The notes: a model not told the origin generated them from the letters alone. A stretch of DNA of 64,000 nucleotides from Salinigranum halophilum (GCF_007004735.1 NZ_SSNL01000006.1:372001-436000), one strand, 5' to 3'. Positions 36,239-59,395 are shown, counted from the first letter of the stretch. Numbers and translations: made by a program.

Positions 36239-38320
36239 ATGATCCCAGCTCAAGCTCGATGGAAGGAGAACTCCGAACTGCGGGAGGCCGTCATGGGTAC
36301 GGGTCTCTTGTTCGGAATCGTCTCAACGACGTTTCTACTGGTACATGAGGTCTGGGTCCCATCGTGGAACGAAGGCCTCCTACTCTCCGGGTCGTTCGGG
36401 CTCCTCGTCGGACTCTTAGGGACTGAAACCGCAGCATACGCGCTCGTTCTCGGCCTATGGGGTGGCGTGGTGTTCGTCTGGCTGTACGATACGTACAAGC
36501 GGTATCTCGTCTTCGCTCCGGTCGCGTTTTCGCTAGTCATCGTGGGAGCGACTATAGACGGACTGCAGTCGTCACTTGGTATGACGTTCGAGGCAGGAGT
36601 GCTCGTGGGCGCTGGGGGGTTGGCCGGTGTGCAACTCGGAGGAATCCAGTTCGTGAAGTACGCGACAGGCCGAAACACCCGACTCATGGACAACCCGCCT
36701 AGAGCGCTCAAACGAGCTCCCACCTTTGTGTTCGGTGCGGTTCTCATCGGCGTCGTCGGGGGCCTCATCGACTTCCATCTGTTCGTCGGGTCGGCGAACT
36801 CGTTCTCGACCAGCACCGGGCTCGGGGCGGTCCCTCGACACCTGCTGTTCGCGGGCGTTCTCGTGTTCTGTTTCTACCTCTCGACCGAGTACGACAACGA
36901 GTTCCGTATCGTCCAGATCGGTCCTGAACGGTCGGGCAAGACAGCTGTCATGGGTGGGCTGTTCCTCCACGTCGACCGGAACTTCCAGCAGGAACGGCAC
37001 AGCGCGCACATCGACACAATCAGTGCGAAGATCAGTAACCACAACGAGTTCCCTCCTCGAACGGACGAAGGCGACTTCAATGTGCTCCAGTTCAGCTACC
37101 TCTCGAATCGGAAAATCCTCCGAAAGAAGAACACTGTCACCGGGATTGACTATCAGGGAGAGCTCATCATCCCGAACGAGAACGAGAAGTCGTTGGCCGA
37201 AGAGGTCCGAACGCATCGAGAAAACCAAGAGTCTTCGGATGGCGTTGTCGCACGAGTACTCGCCGTCGTCACGAACTATCTGTGGTTCCTCGGATCCGAG
37301 GAGCAGTGGGAAGACGTGTTCGATAAAATCGAAGAACAAGGAGAGGAGATAAACGCGGAGTATCTTCGCATACAGTTGGCGAAGCTGATCGACACGGCTG
37401 ACACCGTGGTGTTCACGGTCCCACTCGACGACTTCCTGACACCGGTCGTCGAACGAGGAAATACCCCTGTGTACTTCCCGGTCTTCGAAGTCGAACGGCT
37501 TGACGAGGGACGCCTCTCCGTCAGGATCCCGGAGACCGAAGACCCCGACGACTATGACGGCAACGCCGAACCGGGAGAGTGGGTCGTCGTAACCCGAGAG
37601 AGCGGGCAACTCGTGTACGAGGAGTCCGGTGAGCCGGCCACGCGGCTTGACGAGTTCGAATCGTTCGAGGACCTCCCCTCTCTCGGTGAGGACCGGGCCT
37701 ACTACGCCCCGGGACAGAAGCAACGCGCGGATTCACAGGCCTACAAGAAGGCGTACGAGGACCTGATTGGTCTACTTCGGACCGACCGGACGAAGTCGTT
37801 CGTCTGGGTGACGACGATGGCCGACCTAGTCTTTCAGGACTTCAAAGAGATGCACAACGGCGTCGATAATGCTGAAGAAGCCGACCGTAAACTCCCCGAG
37901 ATGCAGAGTATTCGTACCGCAACAAACGACACCGAAGTTTTCAGTGAAACGCCGGAGAACGTCGTACGGGACGGGTCGACAGGGCAGAAGCTGTACGCCA
38001 AATGGATTGCGAGACAGTACATCGACAACAGATGGAACTACGACTTCGACAACATGCTGGCAGATACCTTTCAGGAGTTCGTCTATCCGCTCTGGTTCGA
38101 CATCGATCACAACTCACAGGACTCGGACGGACTCAATATCCAACTCTCGAGAGACGAGCCCGTCCTGAAAGGCTCCGAGCAACTCCTCCGTCGGTTCGAG
38201 GGCAAAGATCTCGTGGACAGAACGCCACTTCGTAACGGTGAGTCGGACGTCACGAAAGCGTATAACGCACTGTTCGAATACATGAGCCAGACGGATTTCG
38301 ATGACAATGACGACGAATGA
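36239..38320 (+). CDS. Membrane-anchored P-loop GTPase
   Basis: 693 residues. About seven membrane helices fill residues 19-214, followed by a cytoplasmic GTPase-like domain: P-loop GPERSGKT (228-235), DYQG as the DxxG switch-II motif (304-307), and TTMAD (525-529) where small GTPases have NKxD. A long acidic insertion (about 425-500) separates them. This layout resembles the double-GTPase proteins of ternary conflict systems described by comparative genomics, but the subfamily is not certain. It overlaps the next gene by 4 nt. Two other genes here (39118 and 51797) share the architecture. Confidence 0.7.
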   Translation: MIPAQARWKENSELREAVMGTGLLFGIVSTTFLLVHEVWVPSWNEGLLLSGSFGLLVGLLGTETAAYALVLGLWGGVVFVWLYDTYKRYLVFAPVAFSLVIVGATIDGLQSSLGMTFEAGVLVGAGGLAGVQLGGIQFVKYATGRNTRLMDNPPRALKRAPTFVFGAVLIGVVGGLIDFHLFVGSANSFSTSTGLGAVPRHLLFAGVLVFCFYLSTEYDNEFRIVQIGPERSGKTAVMGGLFLHVDRNFQQERHSAHIDTISAKISNHNEFPPRTDEGDFNVLQFSYLSNRKILRKKNTVTGIDYQGELIIPNENEKSLAEEVRTHRENQESSDGVVARVLAVVTNYLWFLGSEEQWEDVFDKIEEQGEEINAEYLRIQLAKLIDTADTVVFTVPLDDFLTPVVERGNTPVYFPVFEVERLDEGRLSVRIPETEDPDDYDGNAEPGEWVVVTRESGQLVYEESGEPATRLDEFESFEDLPSLGEDRAYYAPGQKQRADSQAYKKAYEDLIGLLRTDRTKSFVWVTTMADLVFQDFKEMHNGVDNAEEADRKLPEMQSIRTATNDTEVFSETPENVVRDGSTGQKLYAKWIARQYIDNRWNYDFDNMLADTFQEFVYPLWFDIDHNSQDSDGLNIQLSRDEPVLKGSEQLLRRFEGKDLVDRTPLRNGESDVTKAYNALFEYMSQTDFDDNDDE

Positions 38321-39036
38321 CCGTCCGGAGAATCTACGCGGCGACGACCGGTCAGTGCCTGGTTCGCAACACCGATGACGTCGATGAGGAGGAACGCTCT
38401 CGCGTCACTCGCGACTTTGAGGCCGGCGTCCGACTCGTTGTCGATTCCGACCATCAGGAAGTCCGTGGATTCGTCCCCGCGATGCGTTCGACGAGTGAAG
38501 CGCTTTTCGCCGTGACACAGTTCGACCACGAGTCGAACGCGAGTCCACTCGATACGCTTTCCGCAGCCGTAACCGAAGAGTTCGAGAAACGGCCCCACTG
38601 GAGGCTCCGCGAAGACACCCCTGAAGGGGCGTTCATCCGGCAACTCGCAGACCCTTCGTCCGAGACAACGTTCCCAGAAGGGTTGCAGGAACTTCTCGAC
38701 GCTGACCCGTCGGACGACACGCCGGTAACGGTCGCTGTTGGCGACTTCACGGCTGCGGCTAACGTGGTTCGCGCGATCGAACAGCTCCAGGCGAGAGGCC
38801 ACACCCCGCGACGAACCGTCGTCGTCGCGGTGTACGAGAGCGTCGACCACATCAACTACGACGTGCTCTGTCTGGTCCGTGAGCAGACGAGTGGCGTGAG
38901 CGTCATCGACGACGCGACCGGGGAGTCCGGAGAGACGCGAAAGACAGAAACACGAGCGGAGTCACCCGTTCTCGACGAACCATCCACGCCACGGCGACTC
39001 CTCGACACGCTCCGTTGTCTGTTCGGACGCGACTGA
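38317..39036 (+). CDS. Partner protein of the membrane GTPase, unknown
   Basis: 239 residues, coupled to the GTPase gene by an ATGA overlap, so the products probably act together. The middle (about 135-190, VTVAVGDFTAAANVVRAIEQ, then VVVAVYESVDHINYDVL) looks like an alpha/beta Rossmann-type domain, the N-terminus is beta-rich, and the tail is polar. No catalytic motif was recognised. Confidence 0.65.
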   Translation: MTVRRIYAATTGQCLVRNTDDVDEEERSRVTRDFEAGVRLVVDSDHQEVRGFVPAMRSTSEALFAVTQFDHESNASPLDTLSAAVTEEFEKRPHWRLREDTPEGAFIRQLADPSSETTFPEGLQELLDADPSDDTPVTVAVGDFTAAANVVRAIEQLQARGHTPRRTVVVAVYESVDHINYDVLCLVREQTSGVSVIDDATGESGETRKTETRAESPVLDEPSTPRRLLDTLRCLFGRD

Positions 39037-39117
39037 CGACAGGGCGCCTCGATTCTCCGCAAGGGGTCTCTGTGACTGGTTACGAAACACCGAGCGAAGA
39101 GCGGGTGGCGAACACGC

Positions 39118-40479
39118 TCACTTCGAAATCTCCCGGAGTAGCGTCTCGAACCCTCGGACCTGGTCCTCGCTGAAGCGGTCGACTGGGACGACGGTACAGG
39201 AGTCGAGGTCGAGACGTCGCTGGATTCTCGCCACGAACTCGTCCGATTCGACGGCATGACCGGTTTGAGTGGCCTCGGAGGCGGCCTCGGTTGTCGCGAC
39301 GACCACATCGGTTCGAAACGAGTCCGCGTATCGCTTACAGATGTCGGCGTAGACGTCAACCTCGACCGGTCGTCCTTCCTCAGCAGTCGGGGTCGGACTC
39401 ACGAGGAGAACGGTCCCGGAACGATCCATCCGAGACAGTACATCGCCGGTGGATTCGGTGAACTCTCTACGGACGACGGACGGGACCAGTGTGATCCAGA
39501 GGTAGCTTCCAACCCAGTGGGCGATCCGCCCGGCAAACCGCAGTGCTGGATGTTGTTCACCGTATCGCCGGTCGACGGAGCGGAGGTCCCTCGTCGTCCA
39601 GCACTCCGACTCGAGTATCACGGTCCGTTTGAGTACACGGCCGGCCGGCGAGACGAAGCCGAATTTCACGAGACTCGTGAATCGCTTCTGTAAATCTCGC
39701 ATATTGCCCGAGTGTTGTGCGCTGTTCAGTTCGCTGTCCCCTTCGATCGGAAAGCCGTGATACTCCGTCTCCGCAAGACCGTACAACCCGCCGATGATGT
39801 AGGGGTGGTACCGACCTTCGGACTGATCTGCAGGTGAGATGACCACGATTCGACGCTGGTAGTCGTACGTCGTGAACACACCGAGGAAGAACACGAACAG
39901 CACCGACGAGCCGAGAACGACCAGCCCGTCGGAGGAGGATGGCACGACGAGCACGTAGTTGACCGAGTTGAGGACGACGACTGCGCTGATCGAATAGAAG
40001 AACGCGCCGGTCGCTGCCGGGAACTGTACCCAGCGGAACTGCTCTCTCACACCGAGGTCGTCCGGTCGCTTGATACCGTAGAAGCGGGATGCCGACACCC
40101 CCGTCGCAAAGCCGAGTAACAAACCGATGAGGAACGCGACTGGTGACCGGCCGATAGTCGCGAGGATCCGACCGGTGTTTTGGACGATTGGAAAGAACGC
40201 GATGGCGAGGACGGCCAACGTGAGCACTCCCTGAACCCGTTTCGTCCCGTCTAGGAGAAACAGCAAGGCCCACGCGAGTACCAGCCCGCTGATGAATGCG
40301 ACTGGAATGTCAAGGTTCCCGGCCAGCGGGATGGCGAACACAGCAAGGAGGTCGTGAACGATCCCACCCGCACGCCAGAGGTCGCTCGCGGCGTTGCTAA
40401 CAGGGTCGACCGACACGCCGAGAACAACCAGCGATCCGACGACGACAGCTGCCTCGAAAGCGTCCTTACGGCTAACCAT
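39118..40479 (-). CDS. Membrane protein with degenerate GTPase-like domain
   Basis: 453 residues from the ATG at 40479. Six to eight membrane helices occupy roughly residues 8-210. The following segment RRIVVISPADQSEGRYHP, then YIIGGLYGL, aligns with the P-loop strand and helix of the GTPases at 36239 and 51797, but the GxxxxGKS/T residues are gone. A C-terminal TVLLVSPTP and DVVVATTEA fit the later strands. I read it as a pseudo-GTPase subunit. It starts 8 nt after the Tubulin_2 stop at 40488 and is co-transcribed with it. Confidence 0.6.
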   Translation of the reverse strand: MVSRKDAFEAAVVVGSLVVLGVSVDPVSNAASDLWRAGGIVHDLLAVFAIPLAGNLDIPVAFISGLVLAWALLFLLDGTKRVQGVLTLAVLAIAFFPIVQNTGRILATIGRSPVAFLIGLLLGFATGVSASRFYGIKRPDDLGVREQFRWVQFPAATGAFFYSISAVVVLNSVNYVLVVPSSSDGLVVLGSSVLFVFFLGVFTTYDYQRRIVVISPADQSEGRYHPYIIGGLYGLAETEYHGFPIEGDSELNSAQHSGNMRDLQKRFTSLVKFGFVSPAGRVLKRTVILESECWTTRDLRSVDRRYGEQHPALRFAGRIAHWVGSYLWITLVPSVVRREFTESTGDVLSRMDRSGTVLLVSPTPTAEEGRPVEVDVYADICKRYADSFRTDVVVATTEAASEATQTGHAVESDEFVARIQRRLDLDSCTVVPVDRFSEDQVRGFETLLREISK

Positions 40480-40487
40480 GTGACTCG

Positions 40488-43400
40488 CTAGCTGTCCTTG
40501 CTGATCGTGCTCTCGTAGGCGTTGACTGAGAGCATATCGAGGAAGACGTCTTTCGCGTCCTTCGTCTCGTCGTTGTCGGCGATCATGATCTCGTCGATGA
40601 ACTTCCCATCGACGCCCCGAACCTCGTCGCGGTAGACGTATGCACCGTAGTCGTTGAATTCGGTCTCTTGCGCAACGGCACCCTCGTGTGCATCCGCCTC
40701 CATCGCGTCCCACCGGTTCCACCTCGCACCGAGGCCGATCGTGTGGTGGGTCCCGATGAATTCGTGTGAACCGAACTTTTCGTCGTACTTGTCTTTGTAA
40801 CCGCCCCGCCTGGTCAGCAACTCGATGTTGTCGAGGAAGACCCCGCCGATGAACAACGTCATCGTGATGTCATCCGGGCCGCCTGAGTCGTACGTCTCCG
40901 CCCTGTAGACGTCGTTGTCAGTCTCGTTCAGCGTGATATCTTTGATCTGCTCGTGGACGTTGTCGTACTTGGACGTGAGGCTGTCAGCGTGGTCCAACGC
41001 GCGGGACATGTAGATCGAACGGTACCGTATCGCGGTGTAGCGCCCACCTACTTCTGCGGAATCAGCGGAGCCCTGTGGGAAGAGGTCGTTCAGCGGCACG
41101 CGTCCGTGCTTGTTGTTCTGCAGCGCCCGCAGGGAGTTGGCGAAGTCCTGCGTGATTCGGTCGATGTGGTTCTCGAGAATTCTCGACTCCCCGATGTGGT
41201 CAGCGTCGATGAGGTCCTCTGGTTCCGACTCCTCGTGTTTGACGAAGGGGTGAGTCCCGTCAGTCACATCGGCCTCCTGAGGCAAGGGAATCTCGTAGAT
41301 GCCCTCGTACCGGTTGGCAAAGGTTCGTCCGTACGTCTCCTCACGATCATCGAGACGGTGGGCTTTGGGCAGGGCGACGCTCACATTGTCTTGACTGGGG
41401 CCGGCCGACAGTCCGTACAACGCCTCGAAACGGTGGATGAGTCCGGTCTTCTCCCGGTCAAGATCGTCGTACTGCTTCGATGCCTGCTTGTGCGCAGTGC
41501 CGATCGGCTGAAGGTACTCCTCCAGCAGGATGTCCATCACCTTCGTACTCTCCAAGTCGAACTCGGCGGTCGGCGTCTCGGGGTCGAGTTGGCTGTACGG
41601 GAGCACTGACTCGAGCAGACGTTCCCCGTCCTCGGCGTCGCTTGCTTCGACCAGCGCACGGAGCTCGTCCGTGAGGTCGTTCGTGCGGTCGCTCGTTGGG
41701 ACGGTGACTTTGTCCGCACCCGTCTGTCCGGTCTCCTCGTGCGAGTAACTGACGAGCTCGCCGTTGTCGGTCAGCGTCCCTTCGAGCGCGTCGACGATGG
41801 CGTTGATTGCCTGCTGTTTCCGCTTCGAAATCGCGGCTGTGCGGTCGAGTTTCTCGTCCGCGAAGTCACAGGAGAACGGGTCGGTGACGTCCAATCCGTC
41901 TCTCGTCTTGTTGATCTGGAACCAACCGCTGTCGTTCGCCGCACCTGCGTTCTGTAGGAACTCGTCACTCCGGTCGTTGCCTCCGATGCCAAACCTTCCC
42001 TTGCGGTGCTTGTGGGTGTCTTTCCGAGCGGCTTTGACGTATTCGAAGCCGTTTTTGACCGCGTCTCCATCGATCTTATCGACGTCCATCTCGGAGAGTA
42101 GCCGGTTCAGCTCCGTGAGCCCCCCATCGATCGACTCGAGCGACTTGTTGGAGAGGTTCAGGTTGGTTCCCTCGACCGCGGAGGCGGTTCCGGAGCCTTC
42201 GACTCTGGCAATCGCTCCACCGGTTCCCCCGATGATTTGCGATCCGAGCTCGTCGAGTGCCTCCTCTACGGTCTCTTGGTTCCGGTTAATCGCGGCGAGG
42301 ACGGCGGCCTCGTCACTGACCGTCCCCTGCCAGGAGTCGAGCATCTCCTGTACGTCCGTGGCGACCGTACTGTAGAACGTCTCGAGGGAGTCTCGGCGCT
42401 CTTTTCGCTGGTTTCGCTTTGCACGGAGCTCCTCGATTCGATTGTCGATCGTCGGGTTGGTTAACACCCTGTTCAGGAAGGTAACGTCCGGCGAGAGGAC
42501 GCCATCACGGAGTGCCTTTCTGATGTCCGCAGCGGTTTGTTCGTCCACGCCCTCCGTCTTGTCTGCGGTGAGGAGGGCAATCGCGCCCCACAGTCGAGCT
42601 CGCCGTTCGATGTTATCGAACTCCTGTTTCAGAACCTCGATGAGCGTGTACAGGTGGCCGTCAGTCTCCTCGTAATCGAAGTGGTCTTCGAGTTGGTTGC
42701 GCAGCATTCCCGGTGCGGTCGAGATGAACTCCCGGGCCTGCTCCATCGAGTTCATCGAATTGATGCCGAGGTTCTGCTCGTCGTCGAGGATCTCGTCGAG
42801 CACCTTGTGAATCTCTTCGAGTTCGTCGCCCAACCCCGCAACCCGGAACGCGCTCTGTTCGAGGAACGTGTCTCGAACGTCTTCCTCGATTCGCTCACGC
42901 AGCTGGTACGCTTCTTCCCGACCATCGTCGGTGTCCAGGTTCCCAGTTTCCGTTCCGTCATCTCTGAACACAGCTCCTGCCGATTCGGGGAACGACTCCT
43001 CGAGGTATTTTTCGACCACGGTGTAGAGGTCGGACTCGCGTTCGAGCTCCTTTCGCTTCGCCGCGAGCTTGTTCTCCAGTTCTTCCTCGGCGATGCGCCG
43101 CATCTGGACGTCGTATCTGACCGTGTACGGCATCGCGAGGGTGAACGGTGCGTAGTCTTGGGGGCCGACCGGCGAACCAGGGATGATGTCCTCGGTGAAG
43201 TTCCCTTGTTGCACGCCGTTCTGGTGGGCGAGGATGCTCCGGACGACTGCCATCTCGAAGTCCCGGTCCTTGTCGTCGAGTGATTCGAGATGGGGAATCA
43301 GCGTAATCGTGCTGAACGGACTGTCGCCGGTGAGGTGCGCGTACTCCAACTCCGACAGGGCCGCGTGTGCGTTCGCCTTGACACTCGCGTTGTCCGAGCT

Positions 43401-44042
43401 GTGAGGCAAGATCGCGAAGAGGTGGGTTCGCTCGCTCGGGAGATCAGCGGCGATGTCGAGGACCATTCCTGACCCAGTCCCACCGCCGAGGGCTGCGACG
43501 ATGACGACTTCGTCGTCCGCATCTGTGTTCGGGGCGACGTCCTGTTCGGTGTGCTCACTAACGTGGTACAGCGCCTTACTCATCGACCGACGGCGCCACA
43601 CGCCACCGCCGAATCCCTCGCGTTCGATCTTGCTCAGCGGCTCTCGGCCCTGCTGGAGCCACCAGCTGTTCAGACGCTGCGTGTCGAACAGGTCGCGAAT
43701 CTCGACCGGGTCCGTCAGTCGCTCACTTTTCCAGGGGTCGGGGAGGCCTTCGGTGATGAGTTGGGGTCCGTCGAACGACACCTCGACGTCGTCTTCAATC
43801 TCGTCCGACTGTTCGATGGCATCAGAAACCGCTTCCTTGGCGCGTGCGGCCCTCTCCTTGTGCCAGTCGTCGCCAGTCGCCGAGTCGATGATTGTCGCTC
43901 GAAGTCGGTCGGGGTCATCGTTGTATTCATCTGATTTCAAGACCTCTTCGAGAATCCACTCCTGAGACATGAATCGATACACGACCTTGCTTCCTCCGCC
44001 ACCGAGCCCAATTAACGTATCAGGAGTTTTGCACCGAGGCAT
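40488..44042 (-). CDS. Tubulin_2-type giant tubulin-like protein, paralog 1
   Basis: 1184 residues. N-terminal IGLGGGGSKVVYRF (11-24) is the first nucleotide-binding glycine loop and AALGGGTGSGMVLDIA (184-199) is the tubulin/FtsZ GGGTGSG signature, the arrangement of the Tubulin_2 family of prokaryotic tubulin-like proteins. The remaining ~900 residues are mostly helical with coiled-coil stretches (about 320-700). It probably binds GTP and may form filaments. It forms an operon with the pseudo-GTPase at 39118. A TATA box at 44064-44075 gives a leaderless start. Confidence 0.82.
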   Translation of the reverse strand: MPRCKTPDTLIGLGGGGSKVVYRFMSQEWILEEVLKSDEYNDDPDRLRATIIDSATGDDWHKERAARAKEAVSDAIEQSDEIEDDVEVSFDGPQLITEGLPDPWKSERLTDPVEIRDLFDTQRLNSWWLQQGREPLSKIEREGFGGGVWRRRSMSKALYHVSEHTEQDVAPNTDADDEVVIVAALGGGTGSGMVLDIAADLPSERTHLFAILPHSSDNASVKANAHAALSELEYAHLTGDSPFSTITLIPHLESLDDKDRDFEMAVVRSILAHQNGVQQGNFTEDIIPGSPVGPQDYAPFTLAMPYTVRYDVQMRRIAEEELENKLAAKRKELERESDLYTVVEKYLEESFPESAGAVFRDDGTETGNLDTDDGREEAYQLRERIEEDVRDTFLEQSAFRVAGLGDELEEIHKVLDEILDDEQNLGINSMNSMEQAREFISTAPGMLRNQLEDHFDYEETDGHLYTLIEVLKQEFDNIERRARLWGAIALLTADKTEGVDEQTAADIRKALRDGVLSPDVTFLNRVLTNPTIDNRIEELRAKRNQRKERRDSLETFYSTVATDVQEMLDSWQGTVSDEAAVLAAINRNQETVEEALDELGSQIIGGTGGAIARVEGSGTASAVEGTNLNLSNKSLESIDGGLTELNRLLSEMDVDKIDGDAVKNGFEYVKAARKDTHKHRKGRFGIGGNDRSDEFLQNAGAANDSGWFQINKTRDGLDVTDPFSCDFADEKLDRTAAISKRKQQAINAIVDALEGTLTDNGELVSYSHEETGQTGADKVTVPTSDRTNDLTDELRALVEASDAEDGERLLESVLPYSQLDPETPTAEFDLESTKVMDILLEEYLQPIGTAHKQASKQYDDLDREKTGLIHRFEALYGLSAGPSQDNVSVALPKAHRLDDREETYGRTFANRYEGIYEIPLPQEADVTDGTHPFVKHEESEPEDLIDADHIGESRILENHIDRITQDFANSLRALQNNKHGRVPLNDLFPQGSADSAEVGGRYTAIRYRSIYMSRALDHADSLTSKYDNVHEQIKDITLNETDNDVYRAETYDSGGPDDITMTLFIGGVFLDNIELLTRRGGYKDKYDEKFGSHEFIGTHHTIGLGARWNRWDAMEADAHEGAVAQETEFNDYGAYVYRDEVRGVDGKFIDEIMIADNDETKDAKDVFLDMLSVNAYESTISKDS

Positions 44043-44063
44043 AGTCTTTCAGTATATCCGATG

Positions 44064-44075
44064 ATATTTAAAAAC
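44064..44075 (-). promoter_or_regulatory. TATA box of Tubulin_2 paralog 1
   Basis: TTTTTAAATATC on the minus strand, 26 bp before the ATG at 44042. It shows that paralog 1 is transcribed separately from paralog 2, which ends about 120 bp upstream. Confidence 0.6.
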
Positions 44076-44161
44076 AGGGTAGGAATTAATTCTCTCCGAG
44101 AGTACCCGCTGTCTTCGGAGGAGTCGACAGCGGTTCTGCGCGATCAACGAAGTGTTTCAGC

Positions 44162-47100
44162 CTACGATTCGTCTCCGAACGGGATCGTGCTCTCGTAGGC
44201 GTCGACCGAGAGCATGTCGAGGAGGACGTCCTTCGCGTCCTTCGTCTCGTCGTTGTCAGCGATCATGAGCTCGTCGACGAGCTGTCCGTCGACGTCTCGG
44301 ACCTCGTCACGGTAGACGTACGCACCGTACGCCCCGTCGTCGAATGCCTGGGAGACAGCGGCCTCGTGGGCGTCCGCCTCCATCGTGTCCCACCGGTTCC
44401 ACCTCGCACCGAGGCCGATCGTGTGGTGGGTCCCGATGAATTCGTGTTTACTGAATTTCTCGTCGTACTTGTCTTTGTAACCGCCCCGCCTGGTCAGCAA
44501 CTCGATGTTGTCGAGGAAGACCCCGCCGATGAACAACGTCATCGTGATGTCATCCGGGCCGCCTGAGTCGTACGTCTCCGCTCCGTACACGTCGATATCT
44601 GCCGCGTTCAGCGTGATATCTTTGATCTGCTCGTGGACGTTGTCGTATCTGTACGAGAGGCCACCGACGGAGTCCAACGCGCGGGACATGTAGACCGAAC
44701 GATACCGCATCGCCGTGTAGCTCCCGCCGACGTCGGCGGAGTTCCCAGAGCCCTGCGGGAAGAGATCGTTCAGTGGCGCCCGTCCGTGCTCGTTTCTCTT
44801 CAACGCCCGCAGGGAGTTGACGAAGTGCTGCGTGATACGATCGGTGTGATTCTCGAGGATGTCCGATTCCCCGATGTGGTCGGCATCACCGACGTCTTCG
44901 GGTTCCGACCGCTCGTGTACGACGTATGGATGGCGCCCATCGTCAAAGTCGGCTTCTTCGGGCAGGGGAATCTCGTAGATGCCCTCGTACCGGTTGGCGA
45001 AGGTTCGTCCGTACGTCTCCCTGCCGCCGTCGACATCGTGCGCAGTGGGCACTGCCACGCGCACGTTGTCAGGACTGGCGGACAGGCCGAGCAACGCCTC
45101 GAGGCGGTGGATAAGCCCGGTGTCGTTCTCGTCGAGATACCGTCTCTCGGCAACCACGTCCTCGTACTGCTGACCGACTGATTGGAGATACACGTCGAAC
45201 AGCACCGCCGCAGTTCTCGACGCCGAAGTCGAGGGGTCACAGACCGGCGTCGAGACGTCGAAGACATCGTGTGGAACGAGTTTATCGAACAACGTCGAGG
45301 TGGTTACCGCGGTCTGGTCGTCCAGATCTGCTTCGAGCGCCCGCAACACCGAATGCGGCTCCCCCACCGGAACGCGGACCAGTTCACCGAACTCTTCGAG
45401 AAGGGGCGTCTTCGGCAGGATTCCCTCGAACGGGTCGGCGAGGACAATCCTGTCGAAACCGTCAACGATTGCGTCGGCCGCGGCCGCCCAGCGCTCACGG
45501 ATCTCTCGACTCCGATCCAACCGCTCGGCGTTGAGCTCATAGCTGAGCGGCTCGCTGACGCTCAGATGACCGGCACCTTGGAAACGGAACCAATCGCTGT
45601 GCTCTACCTGGAGGGCCACGTCGAGGAACTCCTCCTCGCGGTCCCTTCCGAGAAGTCCGCCCAGCAATCCCCCGCTGTGTTCCAGTTGGTACTGCCTGGT
45701 CTGTTTGAGCTGTTCGAACGCGTGGCCGAGTGACTGCACGTCGATCTCCGACACGTCCATCTCGTCGAGCTTCTCGTTCACTCGGTCGATTTCGTCGAGA
45801 TCAAGAGTGACGCGCTCGACTTCGGCTTCCGATTCGGCGTTCTCGACACGTCTGACCGCGTCGGTAATCGACTCGGCGACCCGCTCGAGTGTCTCGTTGA
45901 CCGCCTCCTCGTGTTCGTGTATCGCCGTGAGGACGCTCGCTTCAGGCTCGGTCTCGTATCGCCACTCATCAGTGCGCATTCCGAGCTCATCGGCGATCCG
46001 GTCGTAGCACTCATGAAGTTCGTCTTCCGCCCGCTGCAGTTCGTCTCGCCTCTCGTCGAGATGAGCAAGTCGCTGGTCGATCGTCGGATCGGTCAACACG
46101 CGGTCCAGGAACGTGACGTCCGGCGAGAGGATTCCCTCACGGAGTGCCCTCCTGATGTCTGTGGCGGTTTGCTCGTCCAGCTGTGTCTCCTCTCCTGTGA
46201 TCGTTCCAATCGCGTTCCACAGTCGGGCTCTCCGTTCGATGTTGTCGAACTCCTGTTTCAGCACCTCGACGAGCGTGTACAGGTGCCCGTCGGTCTCCAC
46301 GTAGTCGAAGTGGTCTTCGAGCTGGTTGCGCAGCATCTCTGGTGCGGTCGAGATGAACTGCTGGGCTCGCTCTATCGGGTCCTCGGCTGTGATGCCGAGG
46401 TTCTGCTCGTCGTCGAGGATGTCGTCAAGTACCTCGTGAACCTCTTCGAGTTCGTCGCCCAACCCCGCAACCCGGAACGCACGTTGTTCGAGGAAGGTAT
46501 CTCGGACATCTGCTTCGATTCGCTCACGCAACTGGTACGCTTCCGTGGGGTCGATGTCGGTCACAACGACTCCTTGCTCGGTCTGCTCGAGAGCCTCGCC
46601 AGCCGACTCGGCGAACGACCGCTTGAGGTACGTCTCGACGACGGTGTAGAGGTCGGCCTCCCGCCTCAGTTCTTCGCGCTTCCTGGCGAGTCGTTCTTCG
46701 AGTTCCTCTCCGGCGATGCGCCGCATCCGGACGTCGTATCTGACCGTGTACGGCACTGCAAGGGTGAACGGCGCGTAATCTCTGGGGCCGCCCGGTGAAC
46801 CAGGGATGACCTCTTCGAGACCACACCCCGTTTGGACGAGGTTCTGGTGGGCGAGGATGCTCCGGACGACTGCCATCTCGAAGTCCCGACCCTTGTCGTC
46901 GAGTAATTCGAGATGGGGAATTAACGTAATCGTGCTGAACGGATTGTCGCTGGTGAGCTGTGCGTACTCCAACTCCGACAGGGCCGCGTGTGAGTTCATC
47001 TTAACAAAATCGGGTTCCGACACGTGTGGGAGGATTGCGAAGAGGTGGGTTCGATTGCTCTGCAGGTCCGCGGCGAGATCCAGCGCCATCCCCGACCCAG

Positions 47101-47665
47101 TCCCACCGCCGAGTGCCGCGACGATGACGACTTCGTCGTCCGCACTCGTGTACGGTGCGACGCGGTGCCCGGTGTGTTCACTGACGTGGTACAACGCTTT
47201 TCCGACCGCCCGACGGCGCCACACGCCACCGCCGAATCCTTCGCGTTCGATGTGGCTCAGCGGTTCTCGGTCCTGCTGGAGCCACCAGCTGTTCAGGCCT
47301 TGTGTGTCGAACAGTTCACGAATCTCGACCGGGTCCGTCAGTCGCTCTTGTTGCCAAGGCGGCGGAAGTTCTTCGGTGATGAGTTGGGGACCGTCGAACG
47401 ACACGTCGACGCCCCCCGGATGGTTGCCTGACCGCGTGATGGCGTCCTCAATGGTTTCTATCGCGCGTGCGGCCCTCTCCTTGTGCCAGTCGTCGCCAGT
47501 CGCCGAGTCGATGAGCGTCGCTCGAAGCCGGTCGGGATCATCGTTGTATTCGTCTGATTTCAAAACCTCGTTGAGGATCCACTCTTGAGACATGAACCGA
47601 TACACAACTCTGCTCCCTCCGCCACCGAGTCCGATTAGAACATCCGGGGTGCTACACCGAGGCAT
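44162..47665 (-). CDS. Tubulin_2-type giant tubulin-like protein, paralog 2
   Basis: 1167 residues from the ATG at 47665, which aligns with the start of paralog 1. It has the same IGLGGGGSRVVYRF loop and GGGTGSG signature at 186-192. Paralogs 1 and 2 are closely similar in the first ~560 and last ~300 residues and diverge in the middle coiled-coil region (about 560-840), so the two may copolymerise but bind different partners there. A 120-bp block near the 3' end is identical in DNA to paralog 1. AGTTAAATG 26 bp upstream is its TATA box. Confidence 0.82.
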   Translation of the reverse strand: MPRCSTPDVLIGLGGGGSRVVYRFMSQEWILNEVLKSDEYNDDPDRLRATLIDSATGDDWHKERAARAIETIEDAITRSGNHPGGVDVSFDGPQLITEELPPPWQQERLTDPVEIRELFDTQGLNSWWLQQDREPLSHIEREGFGGGVWRRRAVGKALYHVSEHTGHRVAPYTSADDEVVIVAALGGGTGSGMALDLAADLQSNRTHLFAILPHVSEPDFVKMNSHAALSELEYAQLTSDNPFSTITLIPHLELLDDKGRDFEMAVVRSILAHQNLVQTGCGLEEVIPGSPGGPRDYAPFTLAVPYTVRYDVRMRRIAGEELEERLARKREELRREADLYTVVETYLKRSFAESAGEALEQTEQGVVVTDIDPTEAYQLRERIEADVRDTFLEQRAFRVAGLGDELEEVHEVLDDILDDEQNLGITAEDPIERAQQFISTAPEMLRNQLEDHFDYVETDGHLYTLVEVLKQEFDNIERRARLWNAIGTITGEETQLDEQTATDIRRALREGILSPDVTFLDRVLTDPTIDQRLAHLDERRDELQRAEDELHECYDRIADELGMRTDEWRYETEPEASVLTAIHEHEEAVNETLERVAESITDAVRRVENAESEAEVERVTLDLDEIDRVNEKLDEMDVSEIDVQSLGHAFEQLKQTRQYQLEHSGGLLGGLLGRDREEEFLDVALQVEHSDWFRFQGAGHLSVSEPLSYELNAERLDRSREIRERWAAAADAIVDGFDRIVLADPFEGILPKTPLLEEFGELVRVPVGEPHSVLRALEADLDDQTAVTTSTLFDKLVPHDVFDVSTPVCDPSTSASRTAAVLFDVYLQSVGQQYEDVVAERRYLDENDTGLIHRLEALLGLSASPDNVRVAVPTAHDVDGGRETYGRTFANRYEGIYEIPLPEEADFDDGRHPYVVHERSEPEDVGDADHIGESDILENHTDRITQHFVNSLRALKRNEHGRAPLNDLFPQGSGNSADVGGSYTAMRYRSVYMSRALDSVGGLSYRYDNVHEQIKDITLNAADIDVYGAETYDSGGPDDITMTLFIGGVFLDNIELLTRRGGYKDKYDEKFSKHEFIGTHHTIGLGARWNRWDTMEADAHEAAVSQAFDDGAYGAYVYRDEVRDVDGQLVDELMIADNDETKDAKDVLLDMLSVDAYESTIPFGDES

Positions 47666-47794
47666 AAAAAAGTATCTGTACGTCCACATTTAACTCTTTT
47701 TTGCGAGCGAGGACACAGTCGGTTGCCTCTCGGGTGAACACGGGTGCGCGGCAACGGTGACCGAACCGACGACCTCGAGTAGTGGATATCTCGC

Positions 47795-50700
47795 TCAGGT
47801 CGACTCGTCGGTCGGGACGAGGACCCGGGTGACAGTGGTCGTCGTGTTCTGGTTCGTCGCGGACAACACGACGTAGTAGACTCCCGGTCCATTGGTCTCG
47901 AGTTGCTGGGTGACTCGGCCGTCTTCGACCGGACCGCTGGTCGTGGTCAGCGTCACTCCCGAGTCGTTCAGTAGACGGAGCGAATAACGACTCGCGGTCA
48001 CGTTCGCCTCGACAGTGAGTGTCTGGGTGGATACCTCTGCACCCCACGTCGGACTCAGAATGTCAACGGTCGGCTGTTCATCGGAGCCACCCATCGAAAC
48101 CGTCGACACGACGTGGAGGGATTCGCCACCCTCGGGCGCGACTGTCACCTCGTACTGACCGCTCTTGCCTCCATCGAACCGCACCTCGAACGACCCGTTC
48201 GTGGCGGTGGTCCGCTTACTCGTATTGAGCTGCGGGCCGACGATGCTGACTCGTACGTCCGAGTCATCCCCATTGACCGTCCCTCCGACTAAAATCCCGC
48301 CGCCTCCGCCACCGCCTGCAGTGATGGACAGTTGTCCGATCTCAGCGGGGCCGGCCGTCGCCCCGATACCGTAGACCTCAAGGGCGCCATACGTGCCACC
48401 ACCAGCGAGGAGAGCCACGACGAAGACGAGGACGACGAGGCGAGGGGAGACAGCACCGAGTTTCGACCGCAGGCCGAGTTTCAGAGCTCCAAACCGTCCG
48501 TACCTGCCTGACGGCGGGCTGCGCTGCTTGAGCAGTTCGTCGATCATGTTCTCGATGTCCGAGGTAATCTGCTCGTACTGTTTCTGGTGGATAGCGTCCT
48601 CGCGCTTGAGTTGTCGTATCTGAGTGATTGTTTCGATGGCGTTCGCGAAGTGTTCGCTATCCGACGAACCCACCTCTTGCTCTCCAGTGACTACCTTTTT
48701 CATACTGTTGAGCCCCGTCTCTTCACCCGCCGCAGTGACCGTCTCTCGCCACTGTTCGAGCGAACGGCGAATCTTCGCTGGTCTCGACTTCCGGAACTCT
48801 TTGAACGCTTCAGTCTGGTCTGTCTGGATATCACTCCAGATCTGTTCTCTCTGTTCTTCGTTCAGGACCCTACTTTGCTTGGCGAGGGCGTGGATTTCTT
48901 GCGGATGTGATTTGTCCCGTTTCCCATTTAATGCATCCTTCAGTCTACGAAGCCCCCGTAATCGGTCTGCAGGATCACGCCTGGCGAGCGCCTCTCGATG
49001 CCTCTCAAACTGCCCGACAACTAGGTTTTGTTTTTCAGCTCTCTGTCTGGTTTTGAGCTTCTCCAGTGGCTCCCCCAGCTCCTGGACCAGGATGTTCTGC
49101 TGCTCTGGTCCCACCAGTTCGTTGGTGAGCGCCTCTTGAATCGACTGTTCGATATCCGGTGGGAGGTTTCGACTGACAGCGCCGGACGAGAGGAGTGTCT
49201 GTGCGGCGTTTATAACTCTGATCGCCTCGTCAAAGTCTTGAATGCTGAGGTCACCTGTAAGTCTCCCGTCCAGATGCGTGTGTATCTCGTTCCTGATTCG
49301 GTTCGCGAACTGTCTAGCGAGTTCGTTTTTCGCCTCGGTTTGCTTGTCATGTAACAGGTCTCTGAGCTGCCTATCTAACTCGCGTTTCTGCTCTGGCCTG
49401 AGGACCGTATTCGTGTCGATTACCTCGATGATGCTCCGCGCCCGCTCGAGATACTCGCTCACCTCGTCAGCGTGACCCAGTGTGTTCTCAGCGTCAAGAT
49501 GCGGTTGATCGACAGTGGAGCCTGAGCTCTGACTTTGACGGAGCTGTTTGATTCTATCGAGCGTGTCGACTTTGTCCGCCGGGTCGACGTTCGGTTCCTC
49601 CAGAATATCCTCGACCAGTTGCGTACACTCGTTCGCAAGACGCCTCTGTTCTCTTTCTCGAAACGTTTCTATCTCCGAAGAGACGATATCTGTAAGCTCG
49701 TCCCTGTTCGAATCGGGGTTAGCGAACAGCTTCGGTCGGTCCGTACTCGAGTTTGTTAGTAAATCGATGATTTCTGCGATACGCCGAAACCGATCTAATC
49801 GCTGCTTTTCAGCGTTTCCTGTACTGTGGATATACCGATCGACCATTTGGAACGCCTTCCATAGCTGTTCGCTCCTGTCGGCGTCCAGCGTGCTCCCCGA
49901 AGCAGCACTCATCTTTTCTCGGAACTCATTGAGGAGTTCCTCTCGTTTCGATTCGCGGAGCTGAGTAATCTCGCCCGTCAGCTGTGTCCTGACGCTATTT
50001 CTAATATCGTCGATTTCGCTCTGGTCGAGCAATCCGTCCGTATTCAGATTTCCGATGTACGCCGCGAACCGCTCGAGCGACGCGTCGACGCCCGACAGGT
50101 CCGGATCAGACGTGCACAGACGTTTCGCACGTCGCAGCCGAGCGTAGACGGCCCAGGTGTCTTCATCGGATCTTGGGCGGGTGAGGTTTTTAACCAGCCG
50201 TTCCCCCTCTTCCTCGAGCTCCTCTTTTCGCCGTGCTCTACGCGTTTCGATGCTCTCACTCAGCTTACTGCGAAACGCGGCCTTGAGAGTCTGCTTCTTT
50301 TCACCGAGAATACTATCCTTCTGGAGTCTCCGCGAGAGGGACGAGAATCTGCTCAACACCTCAGGCCCTTCCACAGCGTTCGACTCGGGATCTTCGAGCA
50401 GCCTGATTGCAGCGTTGAACTGTCGGCCCAAATCGTCTTCATCACCGGAACCGTCCTCCAGCAACCCTTCCAGAGCCCGGTCGAACCCGCGTTCGAAGCG
50501 ATCCTCTCGGAGGTCTACCAATTTGTCCTGGCGCTTCTCGATTTTCCCGATGACGAACTCTTGAATCTCTCGTTTCTCTGGTCCGCTGAGAACCTCGTTC
50601 GCCCAGAGGTTCTCAATCAGCGTCTTGACCCGGTCGACCGAGTCCGAAGACGGAACACTGTCTTCGTCGCTCTCCTCGTCCAACATGACGGATACGGCTT

Positions 50701-51766
50701 CGAGCTCGCGGTGTTCCACCTCCATGTCTTTATTCGACAGCGCGTCGAGGTGCGATTCTAATTCGTCTCGGACTTCTTTTTTCATCCCGTCTTCCAGTGA
50801 CTTCCGCGCATTCTCGAGGGAGTCGACGACGTCTTGGGAGATTCCCCGCTTCCAGTTCTCGCTGAGCAACTCGGGATCTGTCAACGAGAACTCGCTCAGT
50901 TCTCTCTCGTCGAACAGCGCGTCAACGATGTCGACCACGTGGCCTGCGTGGTCCGTTCGGAGGTCGGCGCGGTTCGAAGGCGGCTGACCGGATTCGATCG
51001 CGAGCACACAATCGGTCAGTGTTTGCAGCTCTAGGTAGTGGTGCCACACGGTCAGCGACTCCCGCTGCAGCAGCGACGTCACGAGACCTTGGAGTCGGTT
51101 GTCCCACTCTTCACGGACGTCTTTCGCGATGTTCTCATACCGCTGCCGCATCTCCTCTTTCGTCTGATCGTTGAGGGGTGTGAAGTTCGCCAAATCGGGC
51201 TTCATCAAAAGCGTGCTCGGGCCGACCGGGGACCGACTCCCCGACTTCGACACCGTAATCCCGACGGAGAGGCCCCGGTCGAAGAGGAGATAACTGATGA
51301 CGATGGCGGCGTTCTTGTAGTTACGAATCCCGATGTCGAGTTTTGTCCCTTCCTCCAGAAGGCGCACGACGGCAAGCTGTTGTCCGCTGTTCAGTCCGAC
51401 GTTCATCAATGTTCCCGACGCCTGGTTCAGTTTCCAGGGGAAGTCGAACACACCCTCTCGAGTGAATTCCCACCGACCACGGGAGTCTCCTCCCCGTTTG
51501 AGTGCCTCGATGTTCTGCATCAACCCCGAGAAGAGCGTGTCTTTACTGTCGGCGACGTAGGACATGAAGTACTGCGCGGACCGGCCCCCACTCACGTGCG
51601 GTGCCTTCGCCTCGACGTACGCGACGAGGTGGGGTGACGTCGGGTCGACATAGAACTCGATGTCACTCAGGATGTGGTCCAGCACGGCATCGTCAGCCTG
51701 CGTCGCCTCGTCTACCGCTGGATACACCTGGTACCCCTGCGTGTTGTAGATTCTGAGCCTGCTCAT
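47795..51766 (-). CDS. Large coiled-coil membrane protein with extracytoplasmic beta domain
   Basis: 1323 residues from the ATG at 51766, 22-25 bp after CTAAATAAAG. An N-terminal globular domain (about 1-190, SRLRIYNTQGYQVYPAVDE...) is followed by roughly 900 residues of charged helical and coiled-coil sequence, one membrane helix (about 1110-1130), then ~190 residues of beta-rich sequence with a glycine run and carboxypeptidase-regulatory-like repeats that would lie outside the cell. It may link a cytoplasmic tubulin/GTPase assembly to the cell surface. It follows the GTPase gene at 51797 by 30 bp. Confidence 0.65.
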   Translation of the reverse strand: MSRLRIYNTQGYQVYPAVDEATQADDAVLDHILSDIEFYVDPTSPHLVAYVEAKAPHVSGGRSAQYFMSYVADSKDTLFSGLMQNIEALKRGGDSRGRWEFTREGVFDFPWKLNQASGTLMNVGLNSGQQLAVVRLLEEGTKLDIGIRNYKNAAIVISYLLFDRGLSVGITVSKSGSRSPVGPSTLLMKPDLANFTPLNDQTKEEMRQRYENIAKDVREEWDNRLQGLVTSLLQRESLTVWHHYLELQTLTDCVLAIESGQPPSNRADLRTDHAGHVVDIVDALFDERELSEFSLTDPELLSENWKRGISQDVVDSLENARKSLEDGMKKEVRDELESHLDALSNKDMEVEHRELEAVSVMLDEESDEDSVPSSDSVDRVKTLIENLWANEVLSGPEKREIQEFVIGKIEKRQDKLVDLREDRFERGFDRALEGLLEDGSGDEDDLGRQFNAAIRLLEDPESNAVEGPEVLSRFSSLSRRLQKDSILGEKKQTLKAAFRSKLSESIETRRARRKEELEEEGERLVKNLTRPRSDEDTWAVYARLRRAKRLCTSDPDLSGVDASLERFAAYIGNLNTDGLLDQSEIDDIRNSVRTQLTGEITQLRESKREELLNEFREKMSAASGSTLDADRSEQLWKAFQMVDRYIHSTGNAEKQRLDRFRRIAEIIDLLTNSSTDRPKLFANPDSNRDELTDIVSSEIETFREREQRRLANECTQLVEDILEEPNVDPADKVDTLDRIKQLRQSQSSGSTVDQPHLDAENTLGHADEVSEYLERARSIIEVIDTNTVLRPEQKRELDRQLRDLLHDKQTEAKNELARQFANRIRNEIHTHLDGRLTGDLSIQDFDEAIRVINAAQTLLSSGAVSRNLPPDIEQSIQEALTNELVGPEQQNILVQELGEPLEKLKTRQRAEKQNLVVGQFERHREALARRDPADRLRGLRRLKDALNGKRDKSHPQEIHALAKQSRVLNEEQREQIWSDIQTDQTEAFKEFRKSRPAKIRRSLEQWRETVTAAGEETGLNSMKKVVTGEQEVGSSDSEHFANAIETITQIRQLKREDAIHQKQYEQITSDIENMIDELLKQRSPPSGRYGRFGALKLGLRSKLGAVSPRLVVLVFVVALLAGGGTYGALEVYGIGATAGPAEIGQLSITAGGGGGGGILVGGTVNGDDSDVRVSIVGPQLNTSKRTTATNGSFEVRFDGGKSGQYEVTVAPEGGESLHVVSTVSMGGSDEQPTVDILSPTWGAEVSTQTLTVEANVTASRYSLRLLNDSGVTLTTTSGPVEDGRVTQQLETNGPGVYYVVLSATNQNTTTTVTRVLVPTDEST

Positions 51767-51796
51767 GCTTCGAATAGTGCTGTCTTTATTTAGCAA

Positions 51797-53782
51797 TCAC
51801 TGGGCCAGTTCGTCGAGGACTTCCTCGAAGCCGACCGGAATGATGTGCCCGTTGTCGTTGGTCTTCAGCAGCGGTTCACCCTCGACATCCTCGGTTGCGA
51901 AGTACACGGGATGGATGATGCTCGTATTCGCATTCGCTGTCAGCGGGTCGATACCGGCTTCGTTCACGAACCGTCTCTCGACGTACTCGCGGAAGTCCCG
52001 GAACTTCGCCGGACTGTCTTGCGGTTGAGCCCGATGATCGCGGCTTTCTTTCCAATCGTCGATGAAGAAGTCCGCTTTCGACGCGACCAAGATGATCTCA
52101 TCGACGTTCGCGTTCTTTGCGATGTGGACCATCGCCGTGTCTTCCATCGACAGCCCACCGCCCCCCGACCCAGTCGGGTCGAATCCGTAGAACCGCTCCG
52201 AATCGAGGAGGAACACTAGTTTATCCGACCCTCGGATATTCTCACGCATTTGCTTTGCAATTTCTTCTCGGTCCGTCTCAACTTCGGCCTGTGAGGACAC
52301 CTTCTCTTCTTCGATCGGATCGGCGAAATCAGTCTCTTCGTCTTCATCATCCTCGTCAGGGAACGCTGCGTCATCGACGTCTATTTCTTCGTCTTCATCA
52401 TCCTCGTCAGGGAACGCTGCGTCATCGACGTCTATTTCTTCGTCTTCATCATCCTCGTCAGGGAACGCTGCGTCATCGTCTTCAGCGTCCTCGTCTAACG
52501 AGACAGAGACGTTCGACCCGTCTTCGTTTGCGACGTAATCCGCATAGTTGCTCGACTCTTCTCCGTCCTCAAGCTCGCCATCGCCATTAAACACGTCGTC
52601 CTCTTCATCAGGAGCGACCGCGTCTTCCTCCTCGTCGTCTGCGGAGGGCTCTTCCCACCACTCGAGACCGCTGTCGTCGTCTTCGTCGTCATCGTCGTCT
52701 TCAACGTCCCGCCCACCATCTGTTGCTGTCTGACGATTGTTTGTGTCTCCATTGACATTACCGAACTCGAATAGATTTCCAATCATCTGCAATACCTCGC
52801 CAGGATGGTCTCTCATCTCGGCGTTCACGAGCGTCGGGAATCGCCTCTTGGTGAGAAAACTAAACTCGAGTTGATACAGCTGGCGATCGGTTGCGTCGAT
52901 GATTTTCCAAGGGAGCGGAGGGTCATATTGCCTCCTCCCCTCATTATACTCGTTGTTCAACACGATCATGGCTTTATCCACGTCCTTTTGTTCGTACTTT
53001 TTTGGGTGTTCCAAGACCGTCCGGTACAGACCCAACGCGAAGTACGTCTTCCCTGACTGTTGCGGCCCTAGCACCTCGAAGTTCCGCTCGCTCGGCGGAA
53101 CGTCGATGTCGATGAACTTGTCGAAAAAGAAGAGGAACAGCCCACTCCCCACGATGTAGACGAAGGTGATAATCGGTGCAGTGAGTCCGTTGACGACGAT
53201 GTTCACGAGGTTACCGACGACGACGAGTCCCTGCACGAGGTAGACGAGGCCGAGCGACGCAATCGGAAATTCAGCGTAGTCCCCGTTGATCAACATCGCC
53301 CGGAGGAACATGCTCTCCCCGAAGTCGATGTCTCTGAGGTTCCCCTGGAATTTGCCGTTGTCCTCTTCCGTCTCAATCTCGACTCCCTCCGATAGAATCC
53401 CCAGTGCGACGCCCGCGAGAAACGACCCGAGGTTAGTGAGAGTTGGGTTGATGTTCTGCACACCACGGCCGAGAGCCGTCATGACGACGAGAACGATTAG
53501 CGTCCCGATGAGCAACAGGGCCCCCTGATACCGTTTCCGGTAGTCGTGGGCGAAGAGTCCTAGCCACGTGATCAAGAGACCGAACAAGAAGAGGACGACG
53601 GCCTCGACCCCTGGTTCGCCGTCTGGGATGAACGGGATGGCGGTAGCGAGACCGTTGAGGAGGTCGTATCCTCCGCTCGTCCACATGTCGAAGAACATGA
53701 GCGCGATCACCGCTGTCAAACCGGTGACCACGATCGTGTACAGGTAGAACGTCCGTCTGTCCCTGACTTCTCCCCGACTCAT
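51797..53782 (-). CDS. Membrane-anchored P-loop GTPase with acidic insertion
   Basis: 661 residues. About six membrane helices lie in residues 12-220. The GTPase domain carries GPQQSGKT (239-246), DHPGE as DxxG (325-329) and SKAD (568-571) as the NKxD-like base-recognition motif. Between switch II and SKAD is an extremely acidic insertion (about 360-510) containing three copies of a 17-residue repeat. It shares its architecture with the proteins at 36239 and 39118. It is the first gene of an operon with the 1323-residue protein. A strong TATA-like AATATTTATATATG lies about 130 bp upstream, next to IS6 copy 2. Confidence 0.7.
   Translation of the reverse strand: MSRGEVRDRRTFYLYTIVVTGLTAVIALMFFDMWTSGGYDLLNGLATAIPFIPDGEPGVEAVVLFLFGLLITWLGLFAHDYRKRYQGALLLIGTLIVLVVMTALGRGVQNINPTLTNLGSFLAGVALGILSEGVEIETEEDNGKFQGNLRDIDFGESMFLRAMLINGDYAEFPIASLGLVYLVQGLVVVGNLVNIVVNGLTAPIITFVYIVGSGLFLFFFDKFIDIDVPPSERNFEVLGPQQSGKTYFALGLYRTVLEHPKKYEQKDVDKAMIVLNNEYNEGRRQYDPPLPWKIIDATDRQLYQLEFSFLTKRRFPTLVNAEMRDHPGEVLQMIGNLFEFGNVNGDTNNRQTATDGGRDVEDDDDDEDDDSGLEWWEEPSADDEEEDAVAPDEEDDVFNGDGELEDGEESSNYADYVANEDGSNVSVSLDEDAEDDDAAFPDEDDEDEEIDVDDAAFPDEDDEDEEIDVDDAAFPDEDDEDEETDFADPIEEEKVSSQAEVETDREEIAKQMRENIRGSDKLVFLLDSERFYGFDPTGSGGGGLSMEDTAMVHIAKNANVDEIILVASKADFFIDDWKESRDHRAQPQDSPAKFRDFREYVERRFVNEAGIDPLTANANTSIIHPVYFATEDVEGEPLLKTNDNGHIIPVGFEEVLDELAQ
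52335..52478. repeat. 51-bp in-frame tandem repeat within the GTPase gene
   Basis: Units begin at 52335, 52386 and 52437 and encode DDAAFPDEDDEDEEIDV. The third copy matches for 42 bp. Identity at the DNA level shows recent expansion, and the copy number may vary between strains. Confidence 0.8.
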
Positions 53783-53942: not shown

Positions 53943-54633
53943 GGTCGTGTTAAGTTAGGAATGAGGCGGTCAATTTCTAAGTTGTCTATGCCCGAAATCG
54001 ACCGCCTCAGCGAACATACCGAATGGATTGACTTGGAATTTGTGGAGCGACAGCGGACACCCGAGTTCGCGATTCAAGTAGGTATTCAACTCCATCTTGC
54101 AGGATTATCGCTCTCGAATACCAAACAGCATCTTGAGAGGTTGGGTGTCGAGCGAAGTCGAACCGCCATTCACGACTGGGTGCAGAAAGCCAATCTACAG
54201 CCCGACAGCGATGTGAGTCCGAATCAGATCGCGGTTGACGAAACCGTGATTCGCGTCAACGGCCAGCGCCACTGGCTGTACGCTGCGGTCGACCCCGACA
54301 CGAACAAATTCCTCCACGTGCGGCTGTTTCAGATGCGTACAACGCAACTCACCGTGCTGTTTCTCCGTGAGCTTCACGAGAAACAGCAGCTCACTGACGT
54401 CACATTCTTGATCGATGCTGCGGCTCATTTGAAAGCCGCGCTCAACCGACTCGGCCTCCGATTTCGTGTGAACCGCCATGGAAATCGCAACAGCGTCGAA
54501 CGTGTCTTTCGTGAGATAAAACGACGAACTTCTTCGTTCTCAAATACGTTCTCAAACACACGACTGCCGACCGCGGAGTCGTGGCTCAACGCCTTCGCCG
54601 TCTGGTGGAATCGATGCCAAAGTTAACACGACC
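53943..54633 (+). mobile_element. IS6-family insertion sequence, copy 2, with target duplication
   Basis: A 691-bp element with the same GGTCGTGTTAA ends as copy 1. It is flanked by CTTGCGAC at 53935-53942 and 54634-54641, a perfect 8-bp target duplication, so this copy is a simple insertion into the intergenic region between the kinase and GTPase operons. Confidence 0.9.
53961..54626 (+). CDS. IS6-family transposase, copy 2
   Basis: 221 residues, or 212 from the ATG at 53988. HTH and DDE core as in copy 1 (AVDETVIRV, FLIDAAAHLK, NSVERVF), no frameshift. The start lies in a hairpin (GAGGCGGTC at 53963-53971 with GACCGCCTC at 54000-54008) equivalent to that of copy 1. Confidence 0.88.
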   Translation: MRRSISKLSMPEIDRLSEHTEWIDLEFVERQRTPEFAIQVGIQLHLAGLSLSNTKQHLERLGVERSRTAIHDWVQKANLQPDSDVSPNQIAVDETVIRVNGQRHWLYAAVDPDTNKFLHVRLFQMRTTQLTVLFLRELHEKQQLTDVTFLIDAAAHLKAALNRLGLRFRVNRHGNRNSVERVFREIKRRTSSFSNTFSNTRLPTAESWLNAFAVWWNRCQS

Positions 54634-56450: not shown

Positions 56451-56569
56451 AGAAATGCATATTTAAAAGTTTACGTAGTCGCGTCTCACCAGCAATCCAG
56501 CCTGTCGCCGACGGATATCGTCCAGACTACTGACTTCGGCTCTGAGCTTCACCTCGAAACCGGAGATTC

Positions 56570-58339: not shown

Positions 58340-58510
58340 GCATCGACTGATTGAGGTGACTCCGGGAGCGGCGACGCCCTAACTCACACTCCCAAAAGCA
58401 TCGGTCATCCCCGAAGACACGGGAGAACCATATTGTCACTCTCGAGCCTGTTGTCCGAAGTAGTTCGCTTTCGACCAGCAGGGTTTCCTTCTTACAACAG
58501 TGACGTCTTG

Positions 58511-59322: not shown

Positions 59323-59395
59323 CTCAGTTAGTTCGGCACCTCCGTGGACCCGTGTCCGTCCTCCGTAGATTTCTATGAGCTCTTTTCGGTGGAGT

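Follow-up and report, generated by a model that had tools for sequence, protein, structure and literature searches.

The stretch of DNA analysed here (the window, 64,000 nucleotides from Salinigranum halophilum) encodes a relative of membrane GTPases in which the motifs of a working GTPase are lost. This dead protein, encoded at 39118-40479, appears to have been kept since one ancient duplication, beside a tubulin-like gene and together with an active-type GTPase, and this makes it probably a non-catalytic partner in a membrane-cytoskeleton machine. In more specific terms, and with somewhat better than even confidence, it is regarded here as a pseudo-GTPase that has been conserved as a subunit of a membrane machine based on an FtsZl1-type protein, in which it is paired with an active GTPase.

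The original prediction was that three proteins of the window, encoded from 36239, 39118 and 51797, are GTPase-like and share a layout of N-terminal membrane helices followed by a G domain, and BLASTP and profile homology bear this out (Table 1). Two of them were said to retain the P-loop, a DxxG motif and a TMAD or SKAD motif, and so they do: the 36239 protein has GPERSGKT (G1, residues 228-235, nt 36920-36943), DYQG (G3, residues 304-307, nt 37148-37159) and TMAD (G4, residues 526-529, nt 37814-37825), and the 51797 protein has GPQQSGKT (G1, residues 239-246, nt 53045-53068), DHPG (residues 325-328) and SKAD (residues 568-571). The third was described as carrying SPADQSEGRYH in place of the P-loop; this is correct (residues 215-225, nt 39805-39837), and the loss goes further, with ESECWTT at the expected DxxG site and ATTEAA at the expected (T/S)KxD site, so that all three motifs of a functional GTPase (G1, G3 and G4) are missing. 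The pattern GxxxxGK[ST] is absent along the whole of this protein. Its gene can be read as an ORF of 534 aa from GTG 40722, which would share 235 bp with the tubulin-like gene; the real start is likely ATG 40479, which sits 8 bases past the stop of the tubulin-like gene and gives a protein of 453 aa.

Table 1. Genes of the tubulin-like/membrane-GTPase cassette and its probable companions in the window
Feature	Position	Strand	Remarks
Active membrane GTPase, partner-clade type	36239-38320	+	Membrane helices, then G domain
RIY-domain protein, 239 aa	38317-39036	+	Start overlaps stop of the 36239 GTPase by 4 bp
Pseudo-GTPase	39118-40479	-	About six membrane helices, then predicted GTPase-fold domain; G1, G3 and G4 lost
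Tubulin/FtsZ-like protein (PF13809)	40488-44042	-	GGGTGSG at nt 43467-43487
Second tubulin/FtsZ-like protein	44162-47689	-	GGGTGSG at nt 47090-47110; likely start ATG 47665
RIY-domain protein with long central region	47795-51766	-	One membrane helix; C-terminal tail with weak Ig-like matches
Third membrane GTPase paralog	51797-53782	-	Active motifs; separate clade; acidic insert with 51-nt repeats
Protein kinase with DUF7527, probable companion	54660-56450	-	
Protein kinase, probable companion	56570-58339	+	
HSP70, weak GrpE match and protein kinase in one protein, probable companion	59396-63049	-	

Sequence comparison shows homology along the length of all three proteins, beyond a shared pattern of motifs. 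In BLASTP, the 39118 protein matches the 51797 protein at E 3e-12, over the membrane region and reaching into the P-loop, and the 36239 protein matches the 51797 protein at E 1e-4. A profile-profile comparison run between the dead and the active families (five dead against ten active proteins) gives E 6.5e-34 over 403 columns. Searches of Pfam and NCBIfam with single window GTPases and RIY proteins as queries returned no useful family.

Does the soluble part of the dead protein still fold as a GTPase? An AlphaFold2 model (pLDDT 87.4, pTM 0.83), computed from an alignment that also held active relatives, which may bias it toward the GTPase fold, and from which the dead relative of genome G132 was left out, predicts that it does. 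The best 50 solved entries retrieved with this model are all GTPase structures or their complexes; the top matches are mainly Rab, Rho and Ras proteins, over approximately residues 204-453 and with Z up to 13.2, and Rab5 and Rab6 are matched at Z 13. The fold on which the original prediction had staked the kinship of the three soluble domains is, accordingly, the one that the model returns for the dead protein.

The loci of this kind came from 392 genomes of the order, searched with profiles, and from a scan of named species genomes; profiles of the three families (tubulin-like, GTPase and RIY) served to annotate them. When genome contigs were scanned by pattern with only the 40488-44042 protein, there were no matches, and an alignment-based scan of contigs gave 80 loci. 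The window itself belongs to contig C5 (645 kb) of the haloarchaeal genome listed as G000. The commonest haloarchaeal locus is a single operon for a tubulin-like protein, an active membrane GTPase and a RIY-domain protein, while loci of methanogens and related organisms have the tubulin-like and active GTPase genes, with a RIY gene in some. A second type of locus, found in 15 haloarchaeal genomes, has the dead paralog immediately downstream of the tubulin-like gene, with an active-type paralog at another place; its named carriers include strains of Halorubrum, Halobellus, Haloparvum, Salinigranum and Halosimplex, which makes work in culture plausible. The active/inactive set beside tubulin-like genes that was originally noticed in one genome is thus a recurrent one, with the dead gene tied to a tubulin-like gene and an active-type sister in 15/15 genomes.

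The tubulin-like gene lies directly upstream of the dead gene in all 15 genomes; the active-type partner is near the dead gene in 14 and approximately 14 kb away in the remaining one (G044), and in most of the 15 it is followed by a detected RIY gene. A RIY gene stands directly downstream of a GTPase gene in 56 cases, none of them (0/56) behind a dead gene. In the one-GTPase operons, it is the same active gene that neighbours both the tubulin-like and the RIY genes, and because a single active GTPase ordinarily holds both adjacencies, the dead and active pair has divided the ancestral role. Fusions of tubulin and GTPase were looked for, and none was found. One fusion of another sort occurs in Halosimplex pelagicum (L109:4790-7816), where a RIY domain is joined to a further membrane GTPase, separately degenerate (P-loop GPQSMGSDD), and this connects the two families within a single polypeptide.

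Phylogeny gives the pair a common origin. A tree of 80 proteins built with IQ-TREE places the 15 dead proteins in a single clade (support 100/100), which is sister (99/94) to 16 active-type proteins that include the 36239 protein and the partner of every dead protein. The simplest reading of this tree is that a single duplication was followed by a single loss of the nucleotide motifs. The idea that the three paralogs of the window are one set holds for the dead protein and the 36239 type, which are sister clades, but not for the 51797 protein: it belongs to a different clade, with proteins of L053 and L067 (100/99), and is an add-on, since the trio of dead, 36239-type and 51797-type proteins recurs in only two other sampled genera.

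Inheritance of the genes points the same way. Among 51 genomes with any member of the family, a partner-clade gene is present in 11/11 with the dead gene vs 1/40 without it (Fisher p 2.5e-10, uncorrected for shared ancestry); one genome, G299, has a partner-clade gene and no dead gene. Between the distance matrices of the dead, active and tubulin proteins, the correlations are 0.87-0.90 (Mantel, uncorrected for the species tree). The tubulins of the dead-gene loci cluster together, and those of L040, L058 and L059 also fall inside this cluster. The dead protein of the window groups with those of G325, G304 and G132; G304 comes from a different family within the order, and this points to a cassette that is old or has been transferred whole.

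Could the 39118 gene simply be a decaying pseudogene of a duplicated GTPase? Its missing motifs and its fast divergence (24-38% identity to its relatives) would agree with decay. However, the gene is open and of similar length (438-497 aa) in all 15 genomes, its origin is single and ancient, and dN/dS of the soluble half, estimated from three related genomes only, is 0.29-0.33. Decay is a reading with hardly any probability left, and it is rejected on dN/dS and phylogeny. In the same three genomes the membrane half of the dead protein has dN/dS 0.16-0.21, and the active partners have 0.25-0.35 in the soluble half and 0.28-0.33 in the membrane half. The soluble domain of the dead protein is under purifying selection in the genomes tested. 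Over the wider sample, the membrane half is more identical than the soluble half in 87/105 pairs of dead proteins, in 28/105 pairs of active partners, and in 0/105 pairs from one-GTPase operons. The dead gene is maintained, with the emphasis on its membrane part, and this shift of conservation agrees with an anchor or scaffold no less well than with a regulator, the role originally proposed.

A constrained soluble domain with a GTPase fold kept in the model may also be read in another way, namely, that the dead protein is a divergent switch that binds a nucleotide or some other ligand at a changed site, and there is precedent in that pseudoenzymes can have migrated catalytic residues, according to the part of a review consulted (PMC10211241). 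Against this, G1, G3 and G4 are gone in 15/15 dead proteins, with no replacement motif common to the 15, and a switch of this kind is considered quite improbable. The active proteins keep all three motifs apart from a few exceptions. One is the partner-clade GTPase of G202 (L057:6015-7793), itself degenerate (GPHSSGRRS, CDPG), so that not every partner has an intact P-loop; from its sequence, G202 may be devoid of any intact subunit of the pair. A subtler departure is seen in 13/16 partner-clade GTPases, where M or F stands in place of the G4 lysine of [NT]KxD (TMAD, TMSD, TFAD); in single-GTPase operons, G4 stays TKxD or SKxD. This replacement could relax the specificity for guanine in the partner clade.

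The favoured explanation, that of a pseudo-GTPase paired with an active GTPase, would run as follows. The ancestor would have had one membrane GTPase, encoded between the tubulin-like and RIY-domain genes, that both linked the tubulin-like protein with the membrane and received input from the RIY protein. This GTPase would then have been duplicated in one haloarchaeal lineage. The copy beside the tubulin-like gene would have lost G1, G3 and G4 and become a non-catalytic membrane anchor or scaffold, and the other would have kept both its nucleotide site and its association with the RIY protein. The dead and active proteins probably form a pair through their membrane domains, their G domains, or both, and with such a pairing the nucleotide state of the active subunit would control the complex. 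The physical pairing, the anchoring of the tubulin and the switching are inferred.

The same gene order can be read without any pairing: the dead protein might act on its own as a membrane receptor for the tubulin-like protein, and the active GTPase and RIY protein might form a module apart, carried along in the same cassette. Indeed, among direct neighbours the dead genes adjoin only tubulin-like genes and the active ones only RIY genes, and the active GTPase can lie on the opposite strand or, as in G044, far from the dead gene. What speaks for the pair is the sister-clade origin, the presence of the partner in each of the 15 genomes with a dead gene, and the several genomes where the two genes adjoin within one operon (L042, L052, L095, L097 and L099, for example). 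Two independent modules are, on this evidence, an unlikely arrangement, although a better candidate than an altered switch.

The tubulin-like proteins of the window match PF13809 at E 4.4e-9 and 5.1e-8. The second is 65% identical to the first, and its gene is a lineage-specific duplicate. In G132, a further FtsZ/tubulin-family gene (L039:1511-2674) stands divergently beside the partner GTPase. The window encodes a 248-aa protein at a similar place (34317-35063), which was discarded as a counterpart on finding no similarity to the L039 gene or to PDB sequences.

The RIY domain, of approximately 200 aa, has a RIYDxxG motif. The model of the 38317 protein (AlphaFold2, pLDDT 84.3) has as its best structural matches mostly longin, DENN, roadblock and profilin folds, with Z at most 5.8, DENND1B, MglB, Mon1-Ccz1 and Ragulator among them. 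A search of PDB sequences with the RIY profile gave nothing meaningful and so no sequence support for a longin-type fold, and one against viral models gave nothing clear. The weak predicted resemblance to the longin, DENN and roadblock regulators of GTPases is therefore taken as a lead. Many RIY relatives have beta-sandwich or beta-propeller domains C-terminal to the RIY domain, and in the 47795 protein the membrane helix stands before the Ig-like tail; such tails may act as outer sensors.

How does the system of the window relate to those already described? It belongs, as a haloarchaeal variant, to the FtsZl1/membrane-GTPase/kinase system that Makarova and Koonin predicted in 2010 (PMC2875224). 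As far as the sections consulted go, that system likewise has a tubulin/FtsZ-like protein carrying GGGTG(S/T)G and a long extra region, an archaeal membrane-associated GTPase as its neighbour, and neighbouring protein kinases, to which the three kinase-domain genes at 54660-63049 correspond. A vWA-domain gene is described there in most operons, though not in all, and no vWA match was obtained among the window proteins scanned. Unlike that description, the present system includes a RIY-domain protein and a conserved dead paralog of the GTPase, accompanied by an active-type partner; the main text of the 2010 paper, as searched, makes no mention of an inactive GTPase.

Another relative is found in the double GTPases (DO-GTPase/GAP1 systems) that Kaur et al. 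(2020) described with tubulins (PMC7159879). In the passages found, these too are TRAFAC-type GTPases, which in some cases occur as two paralogs and in some have membrane helices, and they adjoin genes for tubulin-like proteins, HSP70 and kinases; a dead state of the paralogs is not mentioned in those passages. DO-GTPase2 was the most frequent weak Pfam match in our families (11/45 members, E up to 0.01, best 3.6e-6); in the window, the 51797 protein matches it at E 0.15 only and the dead protein not at all. Unlike the DO-GTPase/GAP1 systems, no GAP1 component was matched by Pfam among the window proteins scanned. In the literature searched, a query on pseudoGTPases and archaea brought up general reviews only, no description of a pseudo-GTPase pair or of a RIY domain was found, and experimental work on the archaeal FtsZl1/membrane-GTPase system was not found.

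Rag-Ragulator, MglA-MglB and Rab-DENN, which set a GTPase and a longin- or roadblock-type regulator at a membrane, are alike only in the way they work: here the GTPases are integral to the membrane and have a tubulin-like partner, and the likeness of the RIY protein to their regulators is a weak structural match (Z up to 5.8) with no match in sequence. A bolder picture would be a haloarchaeal membrane machine based on tubulin and controlled by an obligate pair of active and pseudo-GTPase together with a longin/DENN-like regulator whose outer sensor tail varies, where the dead subunit joins the filament to the membrane. It would be an archaeal counterpart, in its logic, of the control of membrane-bound assemblies by Rag-Ragulator or Rab-DENN. 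This analogy is offered tentatively, as something that may well prove too ambitious. If the RIY domain is truly of the longin/DENN type, it bears on the origin of membrane GTPase control in archaea. With a dead GTPase at the tubulin-adjacent position and its active-type sister by the RIY protein, the two relations of the ancestral GTPase become separable, and the division of labour can be tested.

The surroundings of the cassette have features of their own. An IS240-type transposase gene (53961-54626, PF13610 E 3.8e-11) lies between the 51797 GTPase gene and the first kinase gene. At 15804-20686 and 12458-13966 are encoded a VirB4/TraG-like ATPase, a TrbL-like membrane protein and a Cdc6/Orc protein, which suggest the context of a conjugative element or megaplasmid. 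Lastly, the insert of the 51797 GTPase is made of three near-identical 51-nt repeats (52318-52490) that encode a very acidic stretch of the AAFPDEDDEDEE type.
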